This document shows, piece after piece, positions 17,722 through 64,000 of a stretch of DNA of 64,000 nucleotides. Each line of letters starts with the position of its first letter. Position 1 is the first letter of the stretch. The position numbers were made by a program, and so were the translations under genes. Source of the stretch: Rhyzopertha dominica. Lineage: Eukaryota > Arthropoda > Insecta > Coleoptera > Bostrichidae. The stretch spans positions 4,278,002 through 4,342,001 of the forward strand of contig QCXZ01000138.1 of assembly GCA_025024175.1 (NCBI GenBank). Reading direction: 5' to 3'. The notes beneath the pieces were generated by a model that was not told the origin of the DNA, did no database searches, and saw only the letters and a program-made list of their open reading frames with translations.

Positions 17722-18090
17722 ATTTTATTTAAGTTTATTAGGATATTTCGACCTAGATTATATAATTTATTCATATTTACTATCATATAATCCACATAAA
17801 GATCCTGTGGTTGAATAAATTAATCGTATGTAAAAAATATCACAGTTTGTTTAGAAAAATTTTGCTTTGTCAACTTTCAATTGATGTCAAATAATAAATT
17901 AATGTTCTAGTTCGTATATAATAATTCAAAATATGTAAGTATTGTTAATAGTTTTGTATTTGCATACATGTTTAGAGTCGATAACATTTGTAGTTCCCTG
18001 AAGAATACTTGAGTAAATCAGTTGAAAGCTTGGAAGTATAGAGTTATAATCTAGGTCGAAATATCCTAATAAACTTAAATAAAATATTTA
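17722..18090. repeat. Inverted repeat of about 45 bp with 275-bp spacer
   Basis: A segment starting TATTTTATTTAAGTTTATTA at about 17,720 is repeated in perfect inverse orientation at about 18,042-18,088, including the core TTTCGACCTAGATTATA. The spacer has no ORF. It could be a MITE or two facing element ends. It is conserved in copy 2 (about 56,120-56,490). Confidence 0.7.
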
Positions 18091-19043
18091 CTAATTATAT
18101 TGCTTAATATTTGTTAATTATAGCATTATGGCGTTGATGGTTCAAGTGGCTAAAGCTGAAGGACCATTTAATTAATGATGGCCAGTTGAATGATTTTAGA
18201 CGGAAAAGAAGTGCAATTGGACTTCCGGTGTTTCCATTTACTCTGTTTAACTATATAATTATACTCGAAATTTTAAAGTGAAACTGTTTTAGTTTGTACT
18301 CAATTTGTCTCATTCTATTTAAATTCTGAGGATTAAACTTTTTTTCCATCTCTTCGCTGATAGATCAATCCCTTGGGAGGAATCACGTCCCAACATTTTT
18401 ATTCGGCAACACACCCCAAATCCTTAAATCACGGTAACTGTAGAGAATGAGTGCTGCGTTTACTCTTATCACGAATAAATCCTTGAGGGGTTCGCGACTG
18501 TATTACCGGTCTACTTAGTTACATTTTCTCTTCCCACCAATGTTGCGGCTTCTTTCTATCTTTGTATTTTGAGCGTTTGAAACTATATCACGTAATTCTC
18601 TGTCTTTAAATCTGGTTTATGTCGTATACAGGATCGTTGGGATTACTGCTCCTTTTACGAGTGAAACTTTATTATTCAACGACACTAAATGCGAAACTTT
18701 CATAGACGNGACTACAGAAAATGACTGGAATCGAGACAGGGAAAATAAAATTTAACGAATAACTTTTGCGAATATCCATCCTTCTTGCAAATCATATAAT
18801 ATGTAGAAGAAGCAATTTAACAGGGTTTGAAATGAGATAAGAACAATAATTAACGAGATAATTTACTGTTAATAAAATAATAAAGAAAGCAGGTTTGATA
18901 ACTTCTTTAGCTTCACAACTAAATTGACAAATAAAACAATTGCCTTGATTGTAATAGAGAGCTGTATGATAGCTGTTTATTTTAGATAAAAAAATTGTTA
19001 GTTGTACCCACGAAACATATATTAATGTATAGCCTTCCAATTT

Positions 19044-20781: not shown

Positions 20782-21290
20782 AATCCTGAATTATCAGCAT
20801 CATATGGTTATTTATTTCCTTTTTTTCTCTCGATGTTTATTTAATTATGCTTGGGCCGAATACAGTTCTTCAGAGGTGGGGGAATGTTTAAGCTATAATT
20901 TGAATTTTCAATGCTAAGGATGGATAAGCATTGGCATCTATTCAAATTAAGCGATAAGAGCAACAGAAGGTAAAAACAGTCACAAAAGACCACCAGTGTG
21001 TGTGAAGCTGATTAATAGCAAATTTACACGATCATCTAGTTTTAACTGTGATGTCAATCAAAAGGGGGTTCTTCATTCTCATCTCCTTATACTTCGCAAC
21101 CCCCTAAAGAGACGAAGAAGTAAGAAAAACTGGGTAAGCGTGTTTTCCTGTTTTTATTACAATCACACGGTCTGGTGCAAGTTAAGATTGTTTTATCAAT
21201 TATGTACGTTTGGGTTATATTTTGATTTGTTTTAAGTTTATTTACATTATATAATTTAGGAAACTTCGCAATTGAATTATTTGAAATTAT
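20782..21290. other. Unique-looking spacer, no gene recognised
   Basis: AT-rich with a short GC-richer patch at 21,060-21,150. Small ORFs are present but show no domain. Identical in copy 2. Confidence 0.4.
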
Positions 21291-21850
21291 GAGTGAACTG
21301 CGGCGTCAGTAATTGAACTCTGAAGACTGAAAACTGCCTGTTCCATCCAATCGTGTGGAAAAGTGGCCAAGAAAGCGCCTGATTACTCTCCCTTTGCTTA
21401 CACCGAAAGCACTCCGTTAAAGCAAATAGGCCCCATCCGACTAGCCCCCGGCTCTTCCCGGGATTGCCATTTTTTATTTACTGCTCTGTGCAGCAAAGTG
21501 CCACTCCATCAATAAAAATAAACGAAGATAATTGCATTGTCCGATCGGATTTTAAACCTGTCGTACCGACGGAGGGCAATAAAAAATAGAATGGATGGCC
21601 AATGCGGACCAGGGAAAAGTTTTGCGCAAATCTCACAAAGGTTCGCGTGGGAACGCCGCTGCTGAATGACTTTTTTTACGATCCGGTGACTTACAGGTGT
21701 TCGCCTACCTGTAAAAGGCAATTGTGCCACTGATTCGGGGGCGTGCATGCCCAAATACGGACCCGACGGAACTTTTCTGGTATAATGGGTCAGTTTATAA
21801 TGCATGGCTATAATAGGATAAAGGGGGTGTCGCGCTGGATTGGCACAATG
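21290..21850. promoter_or_regulatory. GC-rich non-repetitive island, candidate regulatory element (copy 1)
   Basis: About 550 bp with many CpGs, no transposon homology and no convincing reading frame; the 98-codon minus-strand ORF here is broken in copy 2 by small indels. It could be conserved non-coding DNA. Copy 2 lies at 59,695-60,255. Confidence 0.28.
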
Positions 21851-22139
21851 ATGTTTTATTGACGCTGCCGGAAAAAATATTAATTCCTTTGCATGCTTTT
21901 AATAATGGATCGATATGGGACTGGACAGATATGTCAAAACCTTTGTATAAAAATGTTATTGTGCTTGACTGTACTGTGGTGTAGGTGTCTTTTTTTGTCT
22001 GCGATATTGTCTCGGTTATTTCTTTATATAATAATAGTAAATCATTTGTTTTTGATGCTACTTCCAAACTTTTATTTTTGGCAAAGCCAAATACCAGCAT
22101 TTCAACTGTATGACTAAATTAAAATACTAAAGACAAATA

Positions 22140-22900
22140 GACATATTGTAAAAGAAAAACTCCAACTGCAGAAAACTCCAATCAGATCTCTATTGTCTTA
22201 AGTCAGTCTTTAACACCTTCATCAACACTATGGATGGACGCAAAACCACCAGGCCATGCTGTACGGGGGCATCTGTTGACCATATGTCCAATTGTTTGGA
22301 GGGGATCTTCACATTCACAAGAAGGGTTGATAGATGAATCCCATTTATTAAGAAAAAAACTTGCATTTCCCATGACCAGTGCGAAGGCGATTCAGAGTGA
22401 CCCAAGACCTTCTTGGGAGGTCAGTTCCTGCTACATTTTCCGTAGGATCGTCTATAAGCTGCTGATTGAATATATCATGTTTCTTAAGTTGCCAAACAGA
22501 ACACCATCCATCTTCAATGGTATAAGGATCACGAAGGAAATATTCTGTTCACAGAGGTTTTCTAGAAGTTAGCCCAGTTGTAGGTAGCTCTTGCAGATCT
22601 CGGAAANTCAGAAACTCATTAGGAGCTGATTGATATTTTTGCCAAGCTTTATATGTAGCAAACTGTCTGCGAATCTCAGGAGGAACAATGTTTGAAAGAA
22701 TCGGAAGCCAAGGTTATGCAGTTGACTTAATTGTTCCAGTGATTAGTTGCATTGCAGTATTTAACTGAGTGTCAATTTTTCCTGTGTGATGACTGTTTTT
22801 CCAAACAGGACAGCAGTACTCAGCAGTGCTATAAAGCAAGGCAGTTGCAGAAGTACGGAGTACATACATAGATAAAGTATTTTCACCTGACTTTGAGTGA
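22140..22900 (-). pseudogene. LINE C-terminal fragment with zinc-knuckle motif (copy 1)
   Basis: The minus strand in shifting frames gives YCCPVWKNSHHTGKIDTQLN, then PEIRRQFATYKAWQKYQS, then WVTLNRLRTGHGKC and a C-E-C...H...C segment (CECEDPLQTIGHMVNRCP). This order, post-RT thumb then RTGHG, then a CxC..H..C knuckle, is the C-terminus of many insect non-LTR retrotransposons. It is 5'-truncated and frameshifted. The same fragment is at 60,543-61,310. Confidence 0.65.
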
Positions 22901-23200
22901 TCAAGCTATATAGAAGTCACTTAGGCATTTTTTCGGAAAGTGATTTTTCAACAATAAAAATTCTAAATTGCTTCTGAAGAGCGGGGGATAAGTGCGAACA
23001 TGAGGGTAAAGAGTGATAAAGGCCTGCGCAGTATAGAAGTTTCACGGTTTCCCAAGGAAAACCATAGAAAACTTCAAACGCAAATTTATCTCAAAAACGG
23101 TATGTGTGGAGCGAAACGGACGAAAGTTTGGAAGCAGGATCAATAAACAAGTGTTTAACTATTATTATTTAATAACTTCCAAAGAACTCTACTACTCATT

Positions 23201-23212
23201 ATTTCTTTATAT
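23201..23212. repeat. Target-site duplication of RTE-like LINE (proximal copy)
   Basis: ATTTCTTTATAT, repeated exactly at 26,562-26,573 on the other side of the LINE. It is present once, uninterrupted, at 61,604-61,615 in duplication copy 2. Confidence 0.92.
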
Positions 23213-23270
23213 ATATTATAATCAGTCCCTATCTACCGTAAAGTGTAAGGGTACTTATTGTCTTTTTATT

Positions 23271-24751
23271 TCAGCCACTAACAAACTTAGCCCACTGTTT
23301 CCGGTCGATGGTCATTCGCCGTGCTTCTTTCCATGTCTTGTCTTTTTCTTGCAGTATCTTCTGCACCGTGCTGTCCCATGTTTGCCTAGGTCTTCCTCGC
23401 TGTCTCCTTGGTGTCACTTTAGCTTCCCAGATGCACTTTACCTGTGCTTCATCCCCCATCCTGCACAGATGACCAAACCACTTCAGCTGATTCTTCTCTA
23501 TTTCTTTCAACACTGAGTCCACTTTAAGTTCATCTTGTATATCCTGATTCCTTACTCTATCCATCCTTGTAATCCCCATCACTCTTCGCAGGTATTTCAT
23601 TTCCGTGGCTTGTATCGAGCTCTTCATGCTAGTAGTGAGCACCCATGATTCACTTCCATACAAAAGAATAGGTCTGAAAATTGATTTATACACAGACATC
23701 TTTGTTTTCCTTGTTATTTCTTTTTTATTGATAAATGTTGTTCTTATAGCATGGTACAACTTCATTTGCTGCTGTTATTCTGTTTGTGACTTCTGTGTTG
23801 TACATTCCGCTTCTGTCTATTGCTACCCCCAGATATTTAAAACTTTCCACCATCTCTATTGTTGTTCCATCTATTTGTATGTGGTCATATTTTGCCTCTC
23901 TTCCAATATGCATCATCTTCGTTTTCTTGACATTCATTTTCATGTTGAATTTATTTATTATCTCTGCCCACCATTTCAGATTTGTGTTCATATCTTCCTC
24001 ACTACCGGCACATATTATAACATCATCCGCAAACGCCACACTCCGTGATTGTAACTTGCCGCATGTTTCTATATCCCACTTGTAATCTCTTTGCTTTCGT
24101 TCTATACATTTTTAATATTTCGTCCATGATAATGTTAAACAATGTGGGACTCAAACACCTCCTTGCTTCAGTCCTTCGTGTGTGACAAACTCCTCAGATT
24201 GGCTATTTCTGGTTCTTACATAATTTCTGGTGTTAACGTACGTGCTTTTTATGGCTTTTATTAATTTTGAATCTACTCCTCGGTTTTTCATGCTTTCCCA
24301 TATTTGTTGTCTTTGTACACGGTCGAAAGCTTTTTCCAAGTCTATGAAGCAGAAGAATGCATCCCGGTTTTTGTATTTTAATTTTTTCTGTAATTTGCTT
24401 TAACGTAAAAATGTGATCTTGTACGCTATGTCCTCGTCTAAAACCACTTTGCGATTCAATAAGTTCTCCTTGTATTTTATTGCTCAGTCTTTTTTCCAAT
24501 ATTCTTTCGTAAATCTTAGCTACCGTGCACATTAATGTAATTCCTCTGTAATTCTCACATTTCATTTTGTCTCCAGCCTTATGCACGGGCATTATTATTC
24601 CCAATTCCCAATCTTTTGGTATTCTATCTTGTTTCCATATTTCATTTATCAATTGCAGTAACATCTTCCTCCCTACAGGACCCATTAATTTAACCATTTC
24701 TGCTGAAATTTGATCATGCCCTGGAGCTTTTCCATTCTTCATTTTACGCAC
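23271..24751 (-). pseudogene. Reverse transcriptase and C-terminal region of the RTE-like LINE
   Basis: Conserved blocks in order: MKNGKAPGHDQISAEMVK, PVHKAGDKMKCENYRGITL, SQSGFRRGHSVQDHIF, EKAFDRVQRQQIW, THEGLKQGG, FADDVIICAG (the catalytic Asp pair) and VESFKYLGVAIDRSG. The C-terminus follows with YGSESWVLTTSMKSSIQ, LKWFGHLCRM and RKQWAKFVSG. At least four frame changes separate these blocks (near 24,345, 24,140, 24,045 and 23,760). Residues of the active site are retained. It reads as one protein of roughly 500 aa with small indels, not as separate genes. Confidence 0.88.
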
Positions 24752-25479
24752 TGCTTCCTGTAGTTCCTCTTTCTGTGATTTTTCCCCTCCGTATTTCCAT
24801 CATTGTTTTCTGTTTGTCCAGTCTGATGCTCTTCTTCCTCCTCTTCGATAATGTTTGTCGTACTTGTCCCCAGTAGTTCTTGGAAGTATTCTCTCCATCT
24901 CTGCATAATTTTACAATTTTTCTGTCAGTAACTTTCCATTTACATCCTTCATTTGCATAAGTTCTGCATCTCTTCCTACTCTCAGGCTCTTCAACACTTT
25001 ATAAAACAGCTTTTTGGTGTTCTTTGTGGTTTCTTTCCATTCTATTGCCAAACTCCTCCCAACTTTTCATTTTAGATTGTTTAACTATTTTTTTGACTGT
25101 TGTCCTTTGTTCCTTATATTCCCTGTATGTAACGTCATCCTTCTTACTTAAATATGCTAACCACTTGCTTTTTTTTATTTTAACCTGTTCTTTTATTTCT
25201 TTGTTCCACCATCTTGTTTGCTTTCTATTTTTGTTTATGCTGTTTGTTCCGCATGCTAACTTTGTTGCTGTTAGCAATATGTTTTGAATGTCTCCCATGT
25301 TTGTTCTATGTTTTGATATTGTACTGTTTGTACTGCCTCTGCTATTAGTTCTTCTTCTATTTGTTTATACTTGTTTGTCGTTTCTTTTTCACGCAGTTTG
25401 TACGTTTTGACTGTTATATGTTGTGGGTTTGTTATGTTGTCTCTTCTTGTCTGTTCTTTTTCCCTATTCATTACTGCTA

Positions 25480-26259
25480 CTAACGCGTAGTGATCACTAT
25501 TATTTCTAATCCTCTTTTTACTCTCACATCTCTGACGTCTCTTCTGTTCTTCTTTTCTACTAAAATGTAATCTATGATCGACTTTTCTTGTCTAGTGGGA
25601 GCTACACGTGTATATTTATGTTTTTCCTTATGTTGGTAGAAAGTGTTAGTTATTATCATATTATTTAGTATACAAAATTCAATCATTTTCTTCCCATTAT
25701 TGCTTCTTGTTTCTTCACCATGTATCCCTAATACGCTTGCTGTGGTTTTATCTTTTATACCTACTCTACTATTGAAATCTCCCGCAATTATAACTTTTCC
25801 TTTCGCATTTTCCAGTGTTAATGTTAGTTCCTCCCAAAATTTATTTCTAGTTTCTACTCTATCATCCTCATTGGGTGCGTATATTGTTATTATGTTGGTA
25901 TTTTCCTTAATTCCCATATTAATTTGTACTATAAGTATTCTATCTGTAATTGCTTCCCACATAGTTATTTTGCCTTTCCATTTTTTATTTATTATGCATC
26001 CAACTCCAGATTTAGCTCTTTCCCCTTGTTGTACTCCACTAAAAACAAGTATGTGTCCATTACCTAGTTCCATCATACCCTTTCCCTTCCTTTTGGTTTC
26101 TGTTATTGATAAGATCTGAAGATTGGCATTTTCAAATTCATCCACAAGTTCTTGCTCTTTTCCTTGCAGGCCTCTTACATTCCACGTTCCCATTTTCCAT
26201 GTATCTGTTGTCCGTTTTCTCTTTTCCTGTTCCAGCGTTGTCGTCTTAGGTTTGATCAT
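25480..26259 (-). pseudogene. Apurinic-type endonuclease domain of the RTE-like LINE
   Basis: A 259-codon frame contains KMGTWNVRGLQGKEQEL, LSITETKRKG, GVGCIINKKW, ITIYAPNEDD, VIIAGDFNSRVG and KSIIDYILV, the ordered active-site blocks of the exonuclease/endonuclease/phosphatase fold that nicks target DNA for LINE insertion. The preceding 26,277-26,540 stretch (DNDLTKEELKVQAKLREIA) resembles the C-terminal part of ORF1-like proteins found ahead of such endonucleases. A frameshift after 25,480 disconnects it from the reverse transcriptase. Confidence 0.85.
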
Positions 26260-26573
26260 ATCAGGTTTGCATATTATTAGTTTTTTGNCACTCTTACTAT
26301 TTTATTTTCCGTCCTGTCCCACTTCCATAAAACATCATCAATAAATATTTTGCCATATTTGACTGCTGTTTTCCGTCCTTTCTGATTTTCTTCGTATGCA
26401 ATTTCTCTCAATTTAGCTTGTACTTTAAGTTCTTCTTTAGTAAGATCGTTATCAATGAAAATTTTTGTTCTCCTAAGTTTATTCTTGTTTTTCATCAAAT
26501 CCATCTTGTCTTCCCAAGTTTCTATCTTTGCTACTATCATTTTTGCATTTATAGTTTGGACATTTCTTTATAT

Positions 26574-27183
26574 GTTGATTTAATTGCAAATCTACGATAT
26601 GTCCAACGATAAAGTTTTTGTTTCTGCGCCAAAACTGCCCAAAAAAACTTTTTTTTGCTTGTCTTGAAACCAGCAAGTCTGTGTTTAGAACTTTATTATT
26701 TTGACACAATGGAAAAACGTTTATATTCCTCTTGATTGTGGACTTAGTAATGATTAATTTTAACTTTAAAGTTTTTATCATATATTTTTGACAATTCTAT
26801 AACAGTTNGCTGTTGTAAACGTTTATAATATGTTGACTTTGGAGAAGGGAATTTATTTGATTCAATCTTGTGATATGGGTGAGCTAAGTTACTGAGTGTT
26901 TACTTTCTCGTGAACTAATAAAAAGCTTTTAACAAGTGCATCTTTAAAAATTTTAAGAAACAGATGAATACGATGAAGAAGACATTGCTACCCTTTTGGG
27001 GTTGGAATCTGTGCAGAATTAATCACACATTGAAAAAATGTTGAAATAAAGGGAATTCAGCCATACAAACAGAAATTTAATCATTAAAATAGAAGTTACT
27101 CCTTTGAGGTATTATTGGAAGACAATCCAGTTACAGGAGAATAAAACAAAATTTGATATAATACAGAACATCCTTAGAATACA
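26574..27183. other. Unrecognised sequence shared with copy 2
   Basis: Shared with 61,616-62,227. Short coding-like stretches exist (for example DEYDEEDIATLLGLESVQN near 26,965) but the two copies differ by frame-changing indels, so no protein is maintained. It may be the inner part of an unidentified element ending at 27,184. Confidence 0.35.
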
Positions 27184-27977
27184 GGGTCGCTACAAAGTAC
27201 TATACAGCACTAACAGCTGGCAGTTAGAGGTGGTAGGAGAATGCAAATTGGCCAGAATTCGATGTAATACTATGCAGGATAACCCAAATAATAATCACAT
27301 ATACACCGCAAAAATTTGCCAACAGGTATAATATTAATAATGTTAACTGAAATATGACTAAGACCCATAAGCCTATATATCATGTTTTAAGTAGTATGTA
27401 AACACAATAAGGTACTTTTTACTTCGTGGCAGTATATATTATCATTTGAACGTTACACATTGCACATTAAAAAAAACCAATGCTGCATTACTGCCAGGAA
27501 GTAAATGGGGAACATTTTGAGCATCTTCTGTAATATAAATCTGAAAAAATACAGCATTCACGGAATCATGTTTTTCTTTTTTACTTTTTGGGTACCTACC
27601 CGATTCGCAATAAACTGATCAAACTGGACGAAAATTATCACCAGCCAAGGGAAAATGGTAATACCTAGCTTTTTTTGCCCATTTTAGCGATAAAGAAAAT
27701 TATTTTCATTCTTTTTGTTCTTTGTCAGGCTCAATTCATTGTAGTTACATTTTTATCAACTCAGAAGCAATAAATTGTACAAGTGTAATACATCCTTTTC
27801 AATGATGTGTCTTTTGGCCTCCCTCTTCCCTTGCGCCCATATATTCGAAACAAGATCTGACACGGAGTTGAAAAACTCCAGAAAATGCATTTTAGTTATC
27901 TACAGGTCCATGTACAATTTAAGAAAAATCGGTCTAACAGAAGCTGATTCTGCTGGTTCCTTACTTTGTAGGGACCC
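27184..27977. mobile_element. Short non-autonomous relative of the IS630-type transposon (copy 1)
   Basis: The ends match as inverted repeats: GGGTCGCTACAAAGTA at 27,184 and the inverse of GGGTCCCTACAAAGTA ending at 27,977. From about 27,540 to the right end the sequence is a diverged inverse of the left terminus of the element at 19,044 (shared AAACATGATTCCGTGAA and GGTGATAATTTTCGTCC blocks). No transposase remains. It is an internal-deletion derivative mobilised in trans. The copy at 62,228-63,056 keeps about 20 bp that are missing here near 27,791. Confidence 0.68.
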
Positions 27978-28329
27978 GGTATACAAGACATGATAAGAAG
28001 TACAGAATATTAATGTTATTGAATGCTAAGAACATACTAAAGTACTCATTTTAATTTACTATTCAAATACACAAATATTGTTTAGAAAATTGGCACAAGT
28101 CAGCAGCTAAAATAAATTAAATTAATTATGTTAATTTGAGTTAAATTTACAAAATTGTGATTATAATAATAATTATAAGAAAGAACTTATTTTATTGGAA
28201 TGATTATTAATATAAGCATCACAATAAATGTTAAAAATTAATTATTATGAAAGTTTGATTTTATTTAGTCATATACCTATACAAACGTTATATAGTTTAC
28301 GAATTTCTCTTTCCTCTATTTTATTCCTG

Positions 28330-28860
28330 ACATGTATTAGCCCGATTTACAAACCTAGGTTGTTAGTTTACCCGAACCAAGGACCCCACCAAAATTCATC
28401 CCGACCCCCCTCTCGACCCAAACCGATCGGAAAGCATTATATCTATCAATGCCCATTTATTAGTCCACCACCCAGGATCAACATTTCGCCCTTTGGAGCG
28501 ATGTAAGATAACCGCAGACAGATAGCGATCGTTCGATTCAGGCCGCAACCATTTTCTTCGAATGCGCTTTCATTCACGGATCCCTTTGTCATCCGAATGG
28601 ATGCGTTACACTTCTGAAAGGCACGCGAGTAATATATTGCGAAATAATGTGAGAACCTGGACGTGTGTGTGTGTGTGGTCTCGTTCAGATAGGCCACGTA
28701 TTCGTTTTCATTAGCATGCGCCGGGTGTTCGCAAACGGACCTAATTCCAAAGAGATAATTAATTTGGACAAATTAGGCCGGTCTTTGTAGGGAACACACG
28801 TATCCGTTTTACCTTTGCGTATATGGTAGCTGCTGCTGCCATGTGATAGGAAAAACATGC
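28330..28860. promoter_or_regulatory. GC-richer island, candidate regulatory element (copy 1)
   Basis: Non-repetitive, CpG-containing stretch with GATAACCGCAGA and a GATAATTAATTTGG homeodomain-type AT core, plus a short GT repeat at 28,664-28,677. The antisense 83-codon ORF has no recognisable domain. It is nearly unchanged in copy 2 (63,420-63,930). Confidence 0.27.
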
Positions 28861-29149
28861 TAAATGGGAATGTGCATGTACTGCAGATTAGAATTGGTGA
28901 AACTTATTACTTTGCAAAAATGCCTTTGTGTAAAGTTAAGTAATCAGTTAGTAGTTCCTTTCAGAATACTCTTTCCTTTTTATGGCAGGCTGTATGGTAT
29001 CTAAAAGCTATCAGTATATAATGATAGCATACAAGACCACATTGTTATGGATTTGACCAGCATTTCAGTACTGAAGATCCAACAATTTTATTGAAAAAAA
29101 TTGCAAGATTGGCTTCAGTATAAGTAGTTTTGTAACCTGACGGTTAGCG

Positions 29150-32347: not shown

Positions 32348-32359
32348 TGCATACTTCCT
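32348..32359. repeat. 12-bp target-site duplication (left)
   Basis: TGCATACTTCCT, repeated exactly at 32,907-32,918. It brackets the palindrome-plus-ribozyme insertion and splits the recombinase pseudogene. Confidence 0.85.
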
Positions 32360-32746
32360 AAGTAAGAATTTAGAATGGCAATGCCATCTGTCAGCATTAC
32401 ACTGACATGGTGACAAAGCCACCTAGCTGCCTTAACGGGTACTACTTCCTAAAGGAAGTGACCTGTAGCCTGACAAATTGGCATGCAACTGCATACTTCA
32501 ATTTGACAGCAGGCCACAACGGCACTTTTTGTTAGCGAGCAAGAACCGACATACATTAAAATGCATGTCTATGCAAAAAGTGCCGTGGGGGCCTGATGTC
32601 AAATTGAAGTATGCAGTTGCATGCCAATTTGTCAGGCTACAGGTCACTTCCTTTAGGAAGTAGCACCCGTTAAGGCGGTTAGGTGGCTTTGTCATCATGT
32701 CAGTGTAATGCTGACAGATGGCATTGCCATCCTAAATTCTTACTTA
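32360..32746. repeat. Palindrome: 172-bp arms with 42-bp loop
   Basis: The left arm 32,360-32,531 and right arm 32,574-32,746 are inverse copies with few differences. The loop (32,532-32,573) contains an inverted stretch identical to the 3' end of the hammerhead element that follows (ATTAAAATGCATGTCTATGC). No coding potential. It could form a long hairpin in DNA or RNA. Confidence 0.9.
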
Positions 32747-32758
32747 TGTACATCATAC

Positions 32759-32904
32759 CATTGCTTTGGTATATAAGCAAAACCAGTTCTATGCCGTGCT
32801 GTCTACACTAGACCTAAACTGCACTGATGAGCTGTAATGACAGCGGAATAGATTTATCTGCAGTTGGTTGAGTACGTAGACAGCACAGCATAGACATGCA
32901 TTTT
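32759..32904 (+). mobile_element. Hammerhead-ribozyme retroposon, copy 1 (146 bp, core mutated)
   Basis: Aligns end to end with the 145-bp element at 52,499-52,643. An 18-bp inverted repeat (32,789-32,806 with 32,876-32,893, one mismatch) encloses a hammerhead-like core. Here the unit is fused to the palindrome, and both lie inside one 12-bp duplication. Confidence 0.82.
32817..32865 (+). ncRNA. Hammerhead ribozyme, type I, probably inactive
   Basis: Stem I AACTGCA / TGCAGTT (32,817-32,823 with 32,859-32,865), CTGATGA (32,824-32,830), stem II GCTGT-AATG-ACAGC, then GGAA instead of the required GAAA. Stem III is ATA-GATT-TAT, with C at 32,858 as the cleavage base. The change affects the conserved A13 position, so loss of cleavage is expected. 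Confidence 0.78.
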
Positions 32905-33119
32905 AATGCATACTTCCTTTTTAAATTTAAGAAATACGATAACAGTTCTTCCTCATTTATGATAGATACACCCCGTTTTTAATTCCATTCGTTAAATTCG
33001 GAAAATACTTTTTCAGAATATTCCTTGGACTTCGCAGGCAGTAATTGTAGAGTTACTTCTGCAGCTTCCTTCAGGATTATCCCAGGAATACTTCCTTGCA
33101 TTTCTCACCAACTTAACAA

Positions 33120-47140: not shown

Positions 47141-47145
47141 TTTTT

Positions 47146-48174
47146 TATACAGGATGTTGCAGATTAGTAGGTCATCCCGTTAACCGTATATTCTTGAGGC
47201 CAAAATATGACGATTTTGTTATTGGTAAATTTCTGAAAAACTCTTCATTTAAAAAATACACGGTCTCCAAAGTTAAAATTTAAAAATCGTTTTTATACGA
47301 TATAATCAGCAGTTTTGGAGGTAACGAGTTGAAATTTGGTAGGAGTTTGTAGTATTTACATCTAAGTGTATCCTTGTGAACATTACTGAAAACAAATGAA
47401 TATCGGGGGGTTTGTAACCTTCTAACCCCCCCCCCAACTTTTTTTGACGTACGCCCATGGGATCACCGCATTTTTTTCGGGTACAAAGCTTCATTGTCAG
47501 TTTTTTGGTCTCTTGTAATTTTTAAACAAAATTCTTGGATTCGGAGATAAACGCAGTTTTGTGAAACTTTCCACCTTGTCTATTCTATTAGTAATAATGA
47601 TTTTCCTCTCGTTGTAAATGGTTAATATTATTGATATGATATTTTCCACTGTAGCATTTAAAACCAAATTATTGCCATATTGGAGCTCAAATTATGTATT
47701 TTTAATCATTTTTGTCGTCTTTATTACTAATAAGGAAAGTGAAAGTTTCACAAAACAGCGTTTATTTCTGAATCTACGAATTTTGTGTAAAAATTACGAG
47801 AGACCAAAAAAGTGGCAATGATATTTTGTATTAGAAAAAAATCCCGCTGGTCTCATGGGCGTACGTCAAAAAAAGTTGGGGGGATAGAAAGTTACAAACC
47901 CCCGATATTCATTTGCTTTTACAGTAATGTTAACAATAATTTAGGGGTACATTTAAATGTAAATACTACAAACTCTTACTAAATTTCAATTCGATACCTC
48001 CTAAACAGTGGATTATATCGTAAAAAAAACGATTTCTAAATTTCAACTATGACACCCCGTATTTTTTAAATGAAGCATTTTTCAGAAATTCACCAATAAC
48101 AAAATCGTTATATTTTGACCTCAAGAATCTAGGGTTAACGGGATGACCTACTAATTTGCAACACCGTGTATAAA
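47146..48174. mobile_element. Foldback element (about 1.03 kb, arms about 440 bp)
   Basis: From 47,146 the sequence is repeated in inverse order up to 48,174. Both arms begin TATACA..G.TGTTGCA and share TTAGTAGGTCATCCCGTTAA, TTTTTTGACGTACGCCCATG and other blocks with scattered differences. A central loop of about 120-150 bp (around 47,590-47,720) separates the arms. No transposase. It ends 160 bp from the zinc-finger exon stop codon, in that gene's 3' flank. Confidence 0.85.
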
Positions 48175-48605: not shown

Positions 48606-48959
48606 CTGAAAAGGAAGACCTGTGGTTAGTAGTGGGAAATTTTTGAAACAATAATGATAATAATAACGCATGTGCCTTATTCCTTTATCCGAAGAGTTAA
48701 AAAGGACATAGCAAGGTTATAAAATTCCCGAAGGCAAGTCATTTGTTATATATGGATGACCTAAAACTTTTTGCTCAAAATGAAAACAGCTTAATAGTCT
48801 TGTTACAAAAGGTAAAACTATATGGCGAAGATATCTGAATGCAGTTTGGTATGGACAAATACTTTGGCAATACTTTGGAGACGAGGGTGAATGCTTTCAG
48901 CGTCCATAATGTAATATATTTTCTGAAAGATCGCTGTCTCTTGAAAACACTGACAAAAA

Positions 48960-50465
48960 AATTATAAGTCTGACGTTTCGATTAGACCTGTAATCTTTGT
49001 CAAAGACAAAGAACCTCAAAATTTGCCTGACACAAGTTCAAACAAAATTTTGAAAGTCAATAAACAAATCACCAAGGAAGCGAGACGTCATAGAAACAAC
49101 ATGCCAACCTGATAGAAAAGAACCTAACGACGAAAAAGGAACTACCTACCACTAGATATACACGAACTACTTCATAAAAGATAACTACAAAATAGCTTTC
49201 CAAATGTCACCTAACTCATAATTTCCACAATCCCTATTAAAATGATTAGTATTTCTACAAATTTCTAAAGCTTCTTTTATTAGACGTTTGTGATAATATT
49301 TTTCTCTATGTAAAATTTTTGTTTTATCAAAGTTAATCATGTGTTTAGTCAAATATGAGTGTTTAGCTACGGAAGATTTATCTAAACTGTTTGCAACCTA
49401 GTAGCACGTATGTGTTCTTTCAAACGCGTACCTACTCTTCTTTTAGTTTGACCTATGTAACACTTGCCGCAAGAACAAGTAATTTTGTAAACACCTTCAC
49501 TCTCTAAATGTACTTTGTCTTTAGTAGGATTTAAAATTTTATCTAAAGTATTATATGTACTATCAACAACTAAAATATTGTGTTTTCTAAGCATCCTCTT
49601 TAATTTTTCCGAATGGTCTTGTACATAAGGCAAACTCAACTTGAATTTACTTTGACCCGGCTGAGAATTTACTTGATTTGGATGGGCACTTTTATTAAAA
49701 ACTGACCAAATATTCTTATTGCTATAACCATTTCTCACTAGTGCTAATTTAAGATGATATATTTCTTTTTGTAAAGAACTTTCGNCTGAGATCCCATGTG
49801 CTCTAACAAATAACGTCCTTATAAGACTATTTCTTTTGAGAGGGAGGGTGGTGAGATGTGGCATGTAAATATCTGTCTGTGTGTGTTGGTTTTCTGTAAA
49901 CTTTGTGTCCTAACTGCCCAGTGTTTGTTCTGTGAATTTGGACATCCAAGAAAGGTAAACTACCATTGCTTTCTAATTCCATAGTAAATTTTATGTCGGG
50001 ATTTTGACCGTTCAAATGATTTACAAATCTACCCAACTCTTCTATACCGTGGGGCCAAATAACAAAAGTGTCGTATACATACCTATACCAACATTTTGGC
50101 TTAAACTGAAAACTGTTTATCGCTACCTGTTCAAAATTTTCCATAAATAAATTGGCTACTACAGGATTTAGAGGTGAACCCATTGCACAACCTGATTTTT
50201 GTTCATAAAAATTATCGTTCCACAAGAAATAAGTAGATTTTAAACAATTTTCATATAATCTGGCTATCGTGGCACCTAGGGGATCGCTATTAAGCTTGGA
50301 TTTGATCTATCGGCTTCAGGGATGGGCACTAAAACTAACTAAAATATCACCTTCTGAAATATTTAATTAAGTCTGAATAATTTTTGATGAAACTACTGGT
50401 TTTTCCTACATAAGGTTTTAAATAGTTAGCACAGAATCTTGCTAACTTTTGATAAGACCATTAGT
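48960..50465 (-). pseudogene. Penelope-like element: reverse transcriptase, GIY-YIG endonuclease, 3' hammerhead-like UTR
   Basis: The minus strand, from about 50,465, gives KLARFCANYLKPYVGKTSSF, then LYENCLKSTYFLWNDNFYEQ, GCAMGSPLNPVVANLFMENF, a YRYVYDTFVIWP motif (the usual catalytic Asp-Asp here reads YVYDTFV) and SLPFLDVQIHRTN. After a frameshift near 49,840, the linker leads to GVYKITCSCGKCYIGQTKRR, a GIY-YIG nuclease as found only in Penelope-type retroelements. The stop is at 49,382. The 3' UTR includes a hairpin followed by GAAACGTC on the minus strand (48,971-48,980), matching hammerhead remnants of this class. It is 5'-truncated and inactive. Confidence 0.88.
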
Positions 50466-52480: not shown

Positions 52481-52498
52481 TAACAGGCAAAAATGAAC

Positions 52499-52643
52499 CA
52501 TTGCTTTGGTATATAAGCAAAACCAGTTCTATGCCGTGTTGTCTACATTAGACCTAAACTGCACTGATGAGCTGTAATGACAGCGAAATAGTACTATCTG
52601 CAGTTGGTTGAGGTGTAGACAGCACAGCATAGACATGCATTTT
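52499..52643 (+). mobile_element. Hammerhead-ribozyme retroposon, copy 2 (145 bp, 10-bp TSD)
   Basis: The unit begins CATTGCTTTGGTATATAAGC and ends GACATGCATTTT. It is flanked by an exact 10-bp duplication AAAAATGAAC (52,489-52,498 and 52,644-52,653). An 18-bp inverted repeat (52,529-52,546 with 52,615-52,632; one mismatch and one G-U pair in RNA) extends stem I of the enclosed ribozyme. There is no ORF. The size, ribozyme and TSD fit a retrozyme-like retroposon mobilised in trans. The Penelope-like elements in the window are the obvious candidate helpers because their family is known to carry hammerheads. GGTATATAAG near the start resembles a TATA box. Confidence 0.85.
52557..52605 (+). ncRNA. 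Hammerhead ribozyme, type I, all core positions intact
   Basis: Stem I AACTGCA (52,557-52,563) pairs perfectly with TGCAGTT (52,599-52,605). CTGATGA (52,564-52,570) is the conserved turn. Stem II is GCTGT-AATG-ACAGC (52,571-52,584). GAA (52,585-52,587) follows. Stem III is ATA-GTAC-TAT (52,588-52,597), and C52,598 is the cleavage base, with the cut predicted between 52,598 and 52,599. Every invariant hammerhead nucleotide is present. A 3-bp stem III is typical of metazoan hammerheads in Penelope-like elements and retrozymes, which cleave best as dimers or with a long stem I, as here. Confidence 0.9.
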
Positions 52644-52659
52644 AAAAATGAACATATTC

Positions 52660-55471: not shown

Positions 55472-57443
55472 GTATTATCTGTATACTTATTAAGCCTATT
55501 AATTACTACTTCTTCAAAGTTTCCCTAAAGAATTGATCCCTTTTGCAATCTGAGTTTTGTTCTTAAAATTGATACTCTTCCACAAGAAATAAGTAGCTTT
55601 TAAACAGTGGTCAGACAATTTGGCTATTTATTACCTGGATACCTAGATGTGACATTCACTAAATTTCAATTTAATAATATTAATCGTTAAGTATTGATGA
55701 TTTGATTAGCGACAATTTTCGAAAAATTATTAGTTTCGTAATGTGAACGTTGTGAGCGTTCCCGCTATATATTCTGTTGTTCCGTACACTTAGTGACGTC
55801 TTTTTTATCTATAATATTTTATCAGTTTGCAACATTGTTTCTATGACGTCTTGCTTCCTTATCGATTTGTTCAGATATCCTTTAAACGTTGTCTTTGGCA
55901 AATATTAGAGGAGTAATTAAAAATAAGATTAATAATTTTTGCCAATGTTTGGATTGAAGACAGCATTGCTGCTGAAAAAGTAATTTTTTATTTCCACTGA
56001 ATTCTAAAACATGACAAGGAAGAAAAAGCTCAGCTTGTGAAACGTTAGTAGAACGCCAGGTGTAAGAGCAAATCGCTTAATATATCTACTAATTAAATTG
56101 ATAATAATGGTCGTATTATGTATTTTATTTAAGTTTATTAGGATATTTCGACCTAGATTATATAATTTATTCATATTTACTATCATATAATCCACATAAA
56201 GATCCTGTGGTTGAATAAATTAATCGTATGTAAAAAATATCACAGTTTGTTTAGAAAAATTTTGCTTTGTCAACTTTCAATTGATGTCAAATAATAAATT
56301 AATGTTCTAGTTCGTATATAATAATTCAAAATATGTAAGTATTGTTAATAGTTTTGTATTTGCATACATGTTTAGAGTCGATAACATTTGTAGTTCCCTG
56401 AAGAATACTTGAGTAAATCAGTTGAAAGCTTGGAAGTATAGAGTTATAATCTAGGTCGAAATATCCTAATAAACTTAAATAAAATATTTACTAATTATAT
56501 TGCTTAATATTTGTTAATTATAGCATTATGGCGTTGATGGTTCAAGTGGCTAAAGCTGAAGGACCATTTAATTAATGATGGCCAGTTGAATGATTTTAGA
56601 CGGAAAAGAAGTGCAATTGGACTTCCGGTGTTTCCATTTACTCTGTTTAACTATATAATTATACTCGAAATTTTAAAGTGAAACTGTTTTAGTTGTACTC
56701 AATTTGTCTCATTCTATTTAAATTCTGAGGATTAAACTTTTTTTCCATCTCTTCGCTGATAGATCAATCCCTTGGGAGGAATCACGTCCCAACATTTTTA
56801 TTCGGCAACACACCCCAAATCCTTAAATCACGGTAACTGTAGAGAATGAGTGCTGCGTTTACTCTTATCACGAATAAATCCTTGAGGGGTTCGCGACTGT
56901 ATTACCGGTCTACTTAGTTACATTTTCTCTTCCCACCAATGTTGCGGCTTCTTTCTATCTTTGTATTTTGAGCGTTTGAAACTATATCACGTAATTCTCT
57001 GTCTTTAAATCTGGTTTATGTCGTATACAGGATCGTTGGGATTACTGCTCCTTTTACGAGTGAAACTTTATTATTCAACGACACTAAATGCGAAACTTTC
57101 ATAGACGTGACTACAGAAAATGACTGGAATCGAGACAGGGAAAATAAAATTTAACGAATAACTTTTGCGAATATCCATCCTTCTTGCAAATCATATAATA
57201 TGTAGAAGAAGCAATTTAACAGGGTTTGAAATGAGATAAGAACAATAATTAACGAGATAATTTACTGTTAATAAAATAATAAAGAAAGCAGGTTTGATAA
57301 CTTCTTTAGCTTCACAACTAAATTGACAAATAAAACAATTGCCTTGATTGTAATAGAGAGGCTGTATGATAGCTGTTTATTTTAGATAAAAAAATTGTTA
57401 GTTGTACCCACGAAACATATATTAATGTATAGCCTTCCAATTT

Positions 57444-59181
57444 ATATAAGGTCGCCACAAAGTATGGATATTTCAGGTTCTGTATGACCGATTTTTCTGA
57501 AATTGGGCATGGGCCTATGGGTAATTAAATCCATTTTCAACTCCGTGTTAGCATCGAAAAGGATATTTTTCCCCATTTCAAAAACATATCATAAAGTGTA
57601 AATATAAAAGTTGAGACTGACAAAGAACGAAAAGAATGAAAATAATTACCTTTATCGCTAAATTGGACAAAAAAGCCAGATATTACCGAGTTTTTCTTGA
57701 CTGGTGATAATTTTCGTCCAGTTTGATCAATTTATTGGCGAATCGAGTACCCAAAAAGTAAAAAAAGAAAAACATGATTCCGTGAAAATGCAGTATTTTT
57801 TTTAAATTTATTCAATTAAATGCCTTAAAGCCTTGGATAAAAGTTTTCTAATGTTCTTTGTAACATATTTGGAGTAAGTTCTGAACTTCTGCCCTGATCG
57901 TCTTTTTAAATCTTCTGTATTATGTGGCCGATGGAGCATTAACACAATTATCAGATACCCCACAGGAAAAAATCAAACGGCGTCAGATCAGGAGAACGTG
58001 CTGGGCTTTCTATCGCTCCGCGCCTACCAATGCATCTGTCTGGAAATACCGCATTCAAATATCCACGACGTTGACTGCAAAATGGGGCGGGTGCACCATC
58101 TTGCTGAAAGCATATATGTTCAAAAGGACGCGCAGCATTTTCATGATTAGGGAACAGGCGAATAAGTTCTGGTGTAATGTGTTCGCGCAAAATCTGTAAA
58201 TGCCTTGACCGCATTCAAATTTCCATCGATGGAAAATGGCCCAATAATGTGCTCACCGATAATACCACACCAGATATTCACTTTCTGCGTGTGTTGTGTG
58301 TGGACTTGTTCCATCCAATGTGGATTTGTGTCCGACCAATATCTGCAATTATGTCTATTTACATTATCATTGAGGCAAAAAGTCGCTTCATCAGAAAACA
58401 TAATCCAATTTAAAATGTTTCTATCTTCATCTATGTTCATAGCAGTTTCTCAAAATTCTATCCTACGATCGAAATCATCTTCATTCGGTTCCTGTAATAA
58501 GTGATTTTTTTATGGATGAAACTTCTCTTTTTTCAAAATTTACTGAACAGATCTGCTAATATGGTAAGTGAAAGCACGTTGTTGTACGAAACACTTGGGA
58601 TTCTCTTGCACATCTAAAAGGACATTCAAGCTACTTTCCTCACTCGTAGCAACCTTTGGACGTCCTGGTTTTTGACGATTTTTGGCACTGGCGGTTTCGT
58701 CAAAACGTTGTAATGTTTTAATAACTGTTGATTGGTTCACGATCTTCCTGAATTGCATTGTAGAGTGCAAGTACTTCAGAATAACTTCGCCTTCCATCTC
58801 CATAACCAATCATCATCAAAATTTCGATGCGACCGTCGGTTAACTGAGGCATTGCGATTGCAAATAACAAAGTGAATGAAAATTATCACCAGTCAAGGAA
58901 AAATGGTAGTGCCTGGCTTTTTTGTGCATTTTAGTGATAAAGAAAATTGTTTTCACTCTTCAAGCAATAAATTGTACATTACATTACATACATTTTTGAA
59001 ATCAGGAATTTAAAAAATGCAACTTGCGCTCGTATCTCGGAAACGGGAGCTGACACTGAGTTGAAAAAGTTCCAGAAAACGTCTTTTAATTACCCATAGG
59101 CCCATGCACAATTTCAGAAAAATCGGGCGATCAGAATCTGAAATATCCTGCTGGTTCCATATATTGTAGCGATCTTGTATA
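57444..59181 (-). mobile_element. IS630/Tc1-superfamily transposon with long TIRs, copy 2
   Basis: Same element as at 19,044-20,781, including the same flanking bases, so it was duplicated with its surroundings rather than transposed. Confidence 0.8.
57825..58852 (-). pseudogene. IS630-type transposase, broken (copy 2)
   Basis: Shares the stops in the N-terminal half with copy 1, and adds small indels in the DDE half (for example around 58,088 and 58,203) that split IMFSDEATF..., FQQDGAP and SPDLTPFDFFLWG into different frames. Copy 1 keeps these in one frame. Confidence 0.8.
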
Positions 59182-59694
59182 AATCCTGAATTATCAGGCA
59201 TCATATGGTTATTTATTTCCTTTTTTTCTCTCGATGTTTATTTAATTATGCTTGGGCCGAATACAGTTCTTCAGAGGTGGGGGAATGTTTAAGCTATAAT
59301 TTGAATTTTCAATGCTAAGGATGGATAAGCATTGGCATCTATTCAAATTAAGCGATAAGAGCAACAGAAGGTAAAAAACAGTCACAAAAGACCACCAGTG
59401 TGTGTGAAGCTGATTAATAGCAAATTTACACGATCATCTAGTTTTAACTGTGATGTCAATCAAAAGGGGGTTCTTCATTCTCATCTCCTTATACTTCGCA
59501 ACCCCCTAAAGAGACGAAGAAGTAAGAAAAACTGGGTAAGCGTGTTTTCCTGTTTTATTACAATCACACGGTCTGGTGCAAGTTAAGATTGTTTTATCAA
59601 TTATGTACGTTTGGGTTATATTTTGATTTGTTTTAAGTTTATTTACATTATATAATTTAGGAAACTTCGCAATTGAATTATTTGAAATTATGAG

Positions 59695-60255
59695 TGAACT
59701 GCGGCGTCAGTAATTGAACTCTGAAGACTGAAAACTGCCTGTTCCATCCAATCGTGTGGAAAAGTGGCCAAGAAAGCGCCTGATTACTCTCCCTTTGCTT
59801 ACACCGAAAGCACTCCGTTAAAGCAAATAGGCCCCATCCGACTAGCCCCCGGCTCTTCCCGGGATTGCCATTTTTTATTTACTGCTCTGTGCAGCAAAGT
59901 GCCACTCCATCAATAAAAATAAACGAAGATAATTGCATTGTCCGATCGGATTTTAAACCTNTCGTACCGACGGAGGGCAATAAAAAATAGAATGGATGGC
60001 CAATGCGGACCAGGGAAAAGTTTTGCGCAAAATCTCACAAAGGTTCGCGTGGGAACGCCGCTGCTGAATGACTTTTTTTACGATCCGGTGACTTACAGGT
60101 GTCGGCCTACCTGTAAAAAGGCAATTGTGCCACTGATTCGGGGGCGTGCATGCCAAATACGGACCCGACGGAACTTTTCTGGTATAATGGGTCAGTTTAT
60201 AATGCATGGCTATAATAGGATAAAGGGGGTGTCGCGCTGGATTGGCACAATGATG
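59695..60255. promoter_or_regulatory. GC-rich island, copy 2 of 21,290-21,850
   Basis: Almost identical to copy 1. Single-base indels relative to copy 1 destroy its longest ORF, supporting a non-coding reading. Confidence 0.28.
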
Positions 60256-60542
60256 TTTTATTGACGCTGCCGGAAAAAATATTAATTCCTTTGCATGCTT
60301 TTAATAATGGATCGATATGGGACTGGACAGATATGTCAAAACCTTTGTATAAAAATGTTATTGTGCTTGACTGTACTGTGGTGTAGGTGTCTTTTTTTTG
60401 TCTGCGATATTGTCTCGGTTATTTCTTTATATAATAATAGTAAATCATTTGTTTTTGATGCTACTTCCAAACTTTTATTTTTGGCAAAGCCAAATACCAG
60501 CATTTCAACTGTATGACTAAATTAAAATACTAAAGACAAATA

Positions 60543-61310
60543 GACATATTGTAAAAGAAAAACTCCAACTGCAGAAAACTCCAATCAGATCTCTATTGTC
60601 TTAAGTCAGTCTTTAACACCTTCATCAACACTATGGATGGACGCAAAACCACCAGGCCATGCTGTACGGGGGCATCTGTTGACCATATGTCCAATTGTTT
60701 GGAGGGGATCTTCACATTCACAAGAAGGGTTGATAGATGAATCCCATTTATTAAGAAAAAAACTTGCATTTCCCATGACCAGTGCGAAGGCGATTCAGAG
60801 TGACCCAAGACCTTCTTGGGAGGTCAGTTCCTGCTACCTTTTCCGTAGGATCGTCTATAAGCTGCTGATTGAATATATCATGTTTCTTAAGTTGCCAAAC
60901 AGAACACCATCCATCTTCAATGGTATAAGGATCACGAAGGAAATATTCTGTTCACAGAGGTTTTCTAGAAGTTAGCCCAGTTGTAGGTAGCTCTTGCAGA
61001 TCTCGGAAAATCAGAAACTCATTAGGAGCTGATTGATATTTTTGCCAAGCTTTATATGTAGCAAACTGTCTGCGAATCTCAGGAGGAACAATGTTTGAAA
61101 GAATCGGAAGCCAAGGTTATGCAGTTGACTTAATTGTTCCAGTGATTAGTTGCATTGCAGTATTTAACTGAGTGTCAATTTTTCCTGTGTGATGACTGTT
61201 TTTCCAAACAGGACAGCAGTACTCAGCAGTGCTATAAAGCAAGGCAGTTGCAGAAGTACGGAGTACATACATAGATAAAGTATTTTCGCCTGACTTTGAG
61301 TGATCAAGCT
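60543..61310 (-). pseudogene. LINE C-terminal fragment with zinc knuckle (copy 2)
   Basis: Duplicate of 22,140-22,900 with the same truncation and frame breaks; the RTGHG and CxC..H..C segments are retained. Confidence 0.65.
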
Positions 61311-61603
61311 ATATAGAAGTCACTTAGGCATTTTTTCGGAAAGTGATTTTTCAACAATAAAAATTCTAAATTGCTTCTGAAGAGCGGGGGATAAGTGCGA
61401 ACATGAGGGTAAAGAGTGATAAAGGCCTGCGCAGTATAGAAGTTTCACGGTTTCCCAAGGAAAACCATAGAAAACTTCAAACGCAAATTTATCTCAAAAA
61501 CGGTATGTGTGGAGCGAAACGGACGAAAGTTTGGAAGCAGGATCAATAAACAAGTGTTTAACTATTATTATTTAATAACTTCCAAAGAACTCTACTACTC
61601 ATT

Positions 61604-61615
61604 ATTTCTTTATAT
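61604..61615. other. Empty RTE insertion site
   Basis: ATTTCTTTATAT occurs once here, continuous with flanks that in copy 1 are separated by the 3.35-kb LINE and its duplicated 12-mer. Confidence 0.95.
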
Positions 61616-62227
61616 GTTGATTTAATTGCAAATCTACGATATGTCCAACGATAAAGTTTTTGTTTCTGCGCCAAAACTGCCCAAAAAAACATTTTTTGCT
61701 TGCCTTGAAACCAGCAAGTCTGTGTTTAGAACTTTATTATTTTGACACAATGGAAAAAACGTTTATATTCCTCTTGACTGTGGACTTAGTAATGATTAAT
61801 TTTAACTTTAAAGTTTTTATCATATATTTTTGACAATTCTATAACAGTTTGCTGTTGTAAACGTTTATAAAATGTTGATTTTGGAGCAGGGAATTTATTT
61901 GATTCAATCTTGTGATATGGGTGAGCTAAGTTACTGAGTGTTTAACTTTCTCGCGAACTAATAAAAAGCTTTTAACAAGTGCATCTTTAAAAATTTTAAG
62001 AAACAGATGAATACCATGAAGAAGACATTGAGCTACCCTTTTGGGGTTGGAATCTGTGCAGAATTAATCACACACTGAAAAAATGTTGAAAAAAAGGGAA
62101 TTCAGCCATACAAACAGAAATTTAATTATTAAAATAGAAGTTACTCCTTTGAGGTATTATTGGAAGACAATCCAGTTACAGGAGAAAAAACAAAATTTGA
62201 TTTAATACAGAACATCCTTAGAATACA

Positions 62228-63056
62228 GGGTCGCTACAAAGTACTGTACAGCACTAACAGCTGGCAGTTAGAGGTAGTGGTAGGAGAATGCAAATTTGCC
62301 AGAATTCGATGTAATACTATGCAGGATAACCCAAATAATAATCACTTATACACCGCAAAATTTTGCCAACAGGTATAATATTAATAATGATATTAATAAT
62401 TAATAAAATATGACTAAGACCCCTAAGCCTATATATCATGTTTTAAGTAGTATGTAAACACAATAAGGTACTTTTTACTTCGTGGCAGTATATATTATCA
62501 TTTGAACGTTACACATTGCACATTAAAAAAAATCAATGCTGCATTACTGCCAGGAAGTAAATGGAGAACATTTTGAGCACCTTCTGTAATATAAATCTGA
62601 AAAAAATACAGCATCCACGGAAGCATGTTTTTCTTTTTTACTTTTTGGGTACCCACCCACCCGTTTCGCAATAAATTGGTCAAACTAGACGAAAATTATC
62701 ACCAGCCAAGGAAAATGGTAATACCTGGCTTTTTTGCCCATTTTAGCGATAAAGAAAATTATTTTCATTCTTTTGTTCTTTGTCAGGCTCAATTCATTAT
62801 AGTTACATTTTTATCAACTCAGAAGCAATAAATTGTACAAGTGTAATACATTTTTGAAGTCAGGAAAAATATCCTTTTCAATGATGTGCCTTTTAGCCCC
62901 TCTCTTCCCCTGCGCCCATATATTGGAAACAAGATCTGACACGGAGTTGAAAAACTCNAGAAAATGCATTTTAGTTATCTACAGGTCCATGTACAATTTA
63001 AGAAAAATCGGTCGAACAAAAGCTGATTCTGCTGGTTCCATACTTTGTAGCGACCC
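62228..63056. mobile_element. Short non-autonomous IS630-type relative (copy 2)
   Basis: Duplicate of 27,184-27,977. The ends GGGTCGCTACAAAGTA (left) and its inverse (right) are here identical, better preserved than in copy 1. Confidence 0.68.
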
Positions 63057-63419
63057 GNTATACAAAACATGATAAGAATTACAGAATATTAATGTTATTG
63101 AATGCTAAGAACATACTAAAGTACTCATTTTAATTTAATATTCAAATACACAAATATTGTTTAGAAAATTGGCAAAAGTCAGCAGCTAAAATAAGTTAAA
63201 ATTAATTATGTTAATTTGAGTTAAATTTACAAAATTGTGATTATAATATTAATTATAAGAAAGAACTTATTTTATTGGAATGATTATTAATATAAGCATC
63301 ACAATAAATGTTAAAAATTAATTATTATGAAAGTTTGATTTTATTTAGTCATATACCTATACAAACGTTATATAGTTTACGAAATTCTCTTTTCCTCTAT
63401 TTTATTCCTGACATGTATT

Positions 63420-63930
63420 AGCCCGATTTACAAACCTAGGTTGTTAGTTTACCCGAACCAAGGACCCCACCAAAATTCATCCCGACCCCCCTCTCGACCC
63501 AAACCGATCGGAAAGCATTATATCTATCAATGCCCATTTATTAGTCCACCACCCAGGATCAGCATTTCGCCCTTTGGAGCGATGTAAGATAACCGCAGAC
63601 AGATAGCGATCGTTCGATTCAGGCCGCAACCATTTTCTTCAAATGCGCTTTCATTCACGGATCCCTTTGTCATCCGAATGGATGCGTTACACTTCTGAAA
63701 GGCACGCGAGTAATATATTGCGAAATAATGTGAGAACCTGGACGTGTGTGTGTGTGTGGTCTCGTTCAGATAGGCCACGTATTCGTTTTCATTAGCATGC
63801 GCCGGGTGTTCGCAAACGGACCTAATTCCAAAGAGATAATTAATTTGGACAAATTAGGCCGGTCTTTGTAGGGAACACACGTATCCGTTTTACCTTTGCG
63901 CATATGGTAGCTGCTGCTGCCATGTGATAG
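63420..63930. promoter_or_regulatory. GC-richer island, copy 2 of 28,330-28,860
   Basis: Nearly identical to copy 1, including the GT repeat. Non-coding candidate regulatory DNA. Confidence 0.27.
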
Positions 63931-64000
63931 GAAAAACATGCTAAATGGGAATGTGCATGTACTGCAGATTAGAATTGGTGAAACTTATTACTTTGCAAAA

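Follow-up and report, generated by a model that had tools for sequence, protein, structure and literature searches.

A hammerhead retrozyme of Rhyzopertha dominica whose insertions resemble those of Penelope-like elements

Retrozymes with type-I hammerhead ribozymes, similar in size to the element analyzed here, are reported from animals including insects (PMC7229834, PMC7761336, PMC4918200). As described by Cervera and de la Pena (2020, PMC7229834), the metazoan non-LTR retrozymes combine a type-I hammerhead with a monomer of 170-400 nt, a GC content under 45%, tandem copies, long target-site duplications and co-resident Penelope elements; a further description puts the fraction of paired bases in metazoan retrozymes at about 70% (PMC4918200). 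Shared hammerheads, tandem copies and co-occurrence have led to Penelope being named as a strong candidate mobilizer (PMC7229834). According to the accounts of Penelope itself, a Penelope enzyme extends both strands in vitro, initiating at two sites inside the RNA (PMC11167929), and insertions with an inverted pLTR, a tail and duplications of 8-10 bp are known (PMC3846280). The minimal hammerheads of Penelope elements are described as lacking helix III (PMC7761336).

We analyzed a 64,000-nt stretch of the R. dominica genome (hereafter, the window) that contains two insertions, copy 1 and copy 2, of an element that, judging by its sequence, is a new animal retrozyme of the metazoan non-LTR kind. 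With the retrozymes described in PMC7229834, it shares the type-I hammerhead, here with an intact core, a monomer within the 150-450 bp range of the class that occurs in tandem, low GC content, long duplications and the presence of Penelope elements in the same genome. The direct arm of copy 2 (333 nt) has a GC content of 43.2%, compared with the 45-50% under which the class falls, and a fold z-score of -8.5; one genomic unit, U, folded as a circle, is 71.6% paired, in line with the high self-pairing of the class. The element has no coding capacity: no ORF longer than 79 aa overlaps two units of the array L032, and an ORF for RT and GIY-YIG endonuclease, a feature of the Penelope-like class, is absent. 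Rfam microRNA and snoRNA matches on the same array were below gathering thresholds, lay mostly at the palindrome center and were rejected. The element differs from the described metazoan retrozymes in that its sequence is species-specific and in its head-to-head arrays with two fixed ends, which we did not find described in the part of PMC7229834 available to us.

Table 1. Features of the two retrozyme copies and the Penelope-like element in the window, and classes of mapped insertions (q, position on unit U)
Feature	Coordinates	Strand	Sequence or members	Remark
Left target-site duplication, copy 1	52489-52498	+	AAAAATGAAC	
Partial retrozyme, copy 1	52499-52643	+		q204-352 of the 352-bp monomer
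Type-I hammerhead core, copy 1	52558-52604	+		Predicted cleavage 52598/52599; covariance match, descriptor scan, element-by-element reading
Stem I, 5' strand	52558-52563		ACTGCA	
Hammerhead core box	52564-52570		CTGATGA	
Stem II, 5 bp	52571-52575/52580-52584			
Hammerhead core box	52585-52587		GAA	
Stem III, 3 bp	52588-52597		GTAC loop	C52598 before the cleavage point
Stem I, 3' strand	52599-52604			
Right target-site duplication, copy 1	52644-52653	+		Junction is site A (TTTTAA)
Left target-site duplication, copy 2	32348-32359	+	TGCATACTTCCT	
Inverted arm, copy 2	32360-32573	-		Outer end at site B (q196); passes through the A junction of the adjoining unit
Direct arm, copy 2	32574-32906	+		Ends at site A (q352)
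Hammerhead, copy 2	32818-32864	+		Core GAA changed to GGA
Right target-site duplication, copy 2	32907-32918	+		
Degraded Penelope-like element	48945-50306	-		RT; GIY-YIG by homologues; abundant family proposed as mobilizer
A/B two-armed, first sample			L003, L005, L007, L020, L030, L031, L032, L033, L035, L037, L038, L041, L042, L044, L045, L046, copy 2	
Single-direction from A, first sample (7)			L004, L034, L036, L039, L040, L043, copy 1	
Single-direction from B, first sample (1)			L029	
Arms sharing a rare variant			L003, L007, L031, L033, L046, copy 2, L069, L071, L076, L079	

In copy 1, every hammerhead element claimed in the initial annotation was located, in order, and the core is intact. 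The designation "consensus-perfect" holds for this core. No Rfam match was obtained across the whole window at gathering thresholds, and a search of 400 bases with lax thresholds matched Hammerhead_HH9 (RF02275) end to end, with an alignment over the full length of the model, but at 28.8 bits (E 2.6e-5), under the gathering score of 52. The proposed "minimal stem-III type" has to be abandoned because helix III is present and the HH9 match extends over 77 positions; in contrast to the minimal Penelope hammerheads, the retrozyme hammerhead has a 3-bp stem III with a GUAC loop. HH9 is a conserved intronic motif of vertebrates. A descriptor scan detected a single hammerhead site in the window, compared with none in 60 Markov simulations thereof, and the fold z-score is -5.98, none of 200 shuffles being equally stable. 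The computed minimum fold has an energy of -50.2 kcal/mol versus -46.5 kcal/mol for the hammerhead-competent fold, which is accordingly not the minimum. The full hammerhead match was present in 49 of the 52 instances with at most 8 mismatches in the window and the first genomic sample (see below), a set chosen by similarity. A second CTGATGA...GAAA match, at 14143, was rejected by eye, having no stem I and two surplus bases ahead of stem II, and exact patterns searched in viral contigs and genome contigs gave no match.

The perfect 10-bp repeat AAAAATGAAC that had been taken to delimit copy 1 is present on both sides of it; of 300,000 random pairs drawn from the same window, 69 gave a match of 10 bp at boundaries of this kind. 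Relaxed BLAST pushed copy 1 about 22 nt leftward at low identity, and the duplication was kept as the boundary. The region of homology, 52497-52645, is identical to one genomic unit at 149 of 149 positions. Near the start of this short form lies GGTATATAAGC (52508-52518, q215-225), which is TATA-box-like by sequence resemblance alone. A search of the genome itself (479 Mb, 138 contigs) with the hammerhead as the query produced 1097 first-look candidates, and 40 of these, when scored, gave 43 matches of 98-100% identity. The copies form tandem and head-to-head arrays with a period of 352 bp and up to about seven units on one strand. The predicted further copies with target-site duplications, and tandem copies, thus exist, and the original interpretation as a non-autonomous, ribozyme-bearing retroposon holds. 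The proposed size of the unit had to be revised: the monomer is 352 bp long, and the 145-bp form represents part of it, a product that recurs in the genome. A circle of 145 nt finds no support, and one of about 352 nt is predicted.

Copy 2 is a 547-bp insertion (32360-32906) between perfect 12-bp duplications; its 3' boundary can be placed only to within 5 nt (TGCAT). It is older than copy 1, to which positions 32757-32906 are 94% identical, and its hammerhead, with the GGA core, is probably inactive. The inverted and direct arms are identical at 164 of 172 positions. The inner end of the inverted arm reads through the element's own 3' end, then 24 nt, and then the arm start, an order that implies a repeated or circular template; copy 2 alone had suggested, ahead of the result of the genome search, that the monomer was circular or in tandem and about 356 nt long. 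The palindrome next to copy 2 was considered as a MITE and rejected since its loop contains the inverse of the element's 3' end and the 12-bp duplication spans both.

Elsewhere, the window includes a segmental duplication (17065-28919 and 55472-64000) with parts that are 99.3% and 95.7% identical. The first copy contains an extra LINE on the minus strand (approximately 23215-26561) with EN and RT frames and a 12-bp duplication, ATTTCTTTATAT, and the second copy has the empty LINE site at approximately 61604-61615. There is also a 1-kb imperfect palindrome (47144-48174) with arms that are 78.8% identical.

Insertions were mapped using U as the ruler, on which site A is q352 and the hammerhead cleavage site is q305/306. 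The first sample comprised 25 insertions (23 loci and the two in the window), the loci being ranked by similarity to copy 1, so that the sample is young and rich in the A side. In 17 of the 25, two arms lie head to head: the first has its end at A (q351-352), and its partner, on the opposite strand, ends at a second site, B (q191-205) (Table 1; the inverted piece of L038, 14 nt long, was identified by eye, and L045 has one extra piece). No A/A or B/B insertion was found among the 25. In 20 of the 25, a script detected target-site duplications of 9 bp or more, compared with 4 bp in plant retrozymes, and such duplications were added by eye for L031 and L038; L034 and L040 have shorter ones (8 and 7 bp, respectively), and no trustworthy duplication was found at L043.

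For the second sample, the query was the other part of the unit, which gave 646 candidates, 40 of which were scored, with 42 matches including copy 2. Among the 41 other matches, 34 end at query positions 171-179, near B, and the best 20 of these 34, a set chosen for its end at B, were mapped. Fourteen are inverted, ending at B (q195-204) on one side and at A (q349-352) on the other, counting L069, in which the A end lies beyond the fetched stretch, and L071 and L074, which have extra pieces; five run in a single direction from B (L073, L075, L078, L080, L081), and L067, inverted with ends at q223 and q351, is an exception. Duplications of at least 10 bp accompany 15 of the 20. Tandems of 145 bp were absent from the loci mapped in both samples. 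A start at q202-206 recurs in solo units (copy 1, L004, L039, L043) and as an arm end (L037, L044, L067, L069, L077, L078), and L078 starts at B (q196), makes one full turn and stops at q203.

Several further details were noted in the mapped loci. In L031, about 1.25 kb of unrelated sequence (1408-2658) splits the leftmost unit and parts the A end from the array; the two parts of the unit overlap by 8 nt (positions 322-329), which resembles the duplication of a later insertion. L035 carries an additional, older B/A head-to-head insertion (261-627, 84-89% identity) that is outside the counts. Arms of L063 (at 1494) and L079 (at 889) stop at q305 and q306, the predicted cleavage site; these stops may represent run-off at cut RNA, with chance possible for two cases. 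Inner arm ends recur at q106-107 (L037, L042, L044, L071), q235 (L066, L079, L082) and q202-208, and are perhaps structure-dependent RT stops.

To characterize the template, arms were compared in 25 of the 32 two-armed insertions (leaving out L030, L038, L044, L045, L070, L074 and L082), with a rare variant defined as one occurring in at most 3 insertions. At least one rare variant is common to both arms in 10 of the 25 (Table 1). In L031, all 11 pieces carry every one of the three variants that they cover, in both arms, one piece having an extra change, and in L033, five variants are present in every covering piece of both arms. The arms of L020 share no variants, with five on one arm only; those of L072 also share none, with 1 and 10 arm-specific variants; and those of L068 share four, with 36 and 5 arm-specific, in part possibly an alignment effect. 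The remaining compared insertions have short overlaps or no informative variants. A single template for both arms is thus well supported where the arrays are clean and may not apply to all insertions. In L031, one arm covers nearly seven turns of the unit. Wherever a first-sample insertion has an A end (24 of 24), its A arm extends back past q305/306, a site that the query spans; such arms could not have been copied from a linear monomer after hammerhead cleavage. A circle would be the simplest template; homogeneous arrays could come instead from a multi-unit linear RNA. In the predicted circle, site B falls within the most open 1-2% of 10-nt windows, and windows at site A, the loop UUUUA, are only in the top 20% for openness.

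From these traces in the genome, we infer that the RNA is cleaved and circular and which enzyme acts on it, and propose the following cycle. Multi-unit transcripts would be cut by the hammerheads into 352-nt monomers that would close into circles. A Penelope-like protein would bind the circle and cut the two strands of the target at positions about 9-15 bp from each other. Reverse transcription would be primed by one strand at the loop of site A and by the other at site B, where the predicted circle is most open. Each reverse transcription would go round the circle, covering as little as part of a turn or as much as about seven, and both cDNAs would then be joined head to head. The 145-bp form would be an A-primed cDNA halted at site B, which in copy 1 would have been inserted alone.

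The association with Penelope made in the initial annotation finds support in the degraded Penelope-like element in the window and in the head-to-head footprint common to the resident Penelope copies. The family of this element yielded 8630 candidates in the genome; among the 150 that were scored, some copies have open frames of 785-814 codons, the opposite-strand neighbors lying within 6 kb of each other form eight pairs, all of them head to head, and there is one same-strand pair. In each of the four insertions chosen as head-to-head pairs (L059-L062), the duplication measures 14-15 bp, and the two ends lie at two different sites, about 30 bp from each other. Both frames of L061 match RVT_1, GIY-YIG (PF01541) is present in three of the four matches homologous to the window Penelope ORF, and no recognizable hammerhead was found in the four loci, L061 included. 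The retrozyme carries a footprint of the Penelope type, with head-to-head arms, two different end sites and duplications (17 of 25); as in the descriptions of Poseidon PAc (PMC11167929) and the Adineta Pen families (PMC3846280), its inverted arms are head to head, with two RT-start sites (candidate ones in the retrozyme), one longer arm (the "tail") and 8-15 bp duplications. It differs from Penelope in the lack of an RT/EN gene, the 352-bp monomer having no long ORF, and in the spacing of the end sites, 152 or 200 nt as opposed to about 30 bp. The case for Penelope is built on topology because no sequence similarity between the retrozyme and the resident Penelope elements was found beyond chance; site B and Penelope site 1 show a weak likeness (9/14, top 2.6% of positions) in one of four comparisons.

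If a LINE mobilized the retrozyme, the inverted arms would be ordinary 5' inversions, produced when an RNA, either circular or multi-unit, underwent twin priming. LINEs are known to prime in this way, and the window LINE, with its EN and RT frames, made a 12-bp duplication similar to those of the retrozyme, a point against the footprint being specific to Penelope. However, when LINEs undergo twin priming, the second sites are scattered and most copies are unaffected, whereas the retrozyme has a fixed second site (q191-205) and shows inversion in 17 of 25 copies; the last 60 nt of the retrozyme are, furthermore, unlike the window LINE. We therefore regard this route as unlikely.

The other two alternatives concern the nature of the element itself. 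The 145-bp form could be a stand-alone SINE-like retroposon with its own small circle, as the recurrence of the q202-206 start among solo units and arm ends might suggest, but its 3' end is common to the 352-bp tandem arrays, with an identical sequence (149/149), its 5' edge adjoins site B, and there are no 145-bp tandems among the mapped loci; such an independent retroposon is highly improbable. There is equally little to recommend the view that the copies are solo pLTR fragments of a Penelope-like element rather than a separate retrozyme: Penelope pLTRs may bear hammerheads and form inverted pairs, going by PMC3846280 and PMC11167929, yet a 352-bp period leaves no space for an RT frame, and the retrozyme is unlike the resident Penelope insertions, which themselves have no recognizable hammerhead.

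Taken as a whole, the data make it probable that this is a non-LTR retrozyme mobilized by the Penelope machinery through two-site priming on a circular template, an explanation that we would hold with greater confidence if not for the arm-variant exceptions (L020, L072 and L068). A more specific scenario, in which the circle has two RT starts, one per target strand, Penelope copies it twice in a rolling-circle fashion, and retrozymes live off Penelope as circular parasites by imitating its two-site priming, seems to us evenly balanced between right and wrong, its odds being lowered by L020 and L072, in which no variant is common to both arms. An insertion footprint in common with the resident Penelope elements bears on how animal retrozymes move: it suggests that the two strands of the target each prime synthesis on a template that is circular or repeats itself, with A and B as the candidate RT-start positions for the retrozyme.
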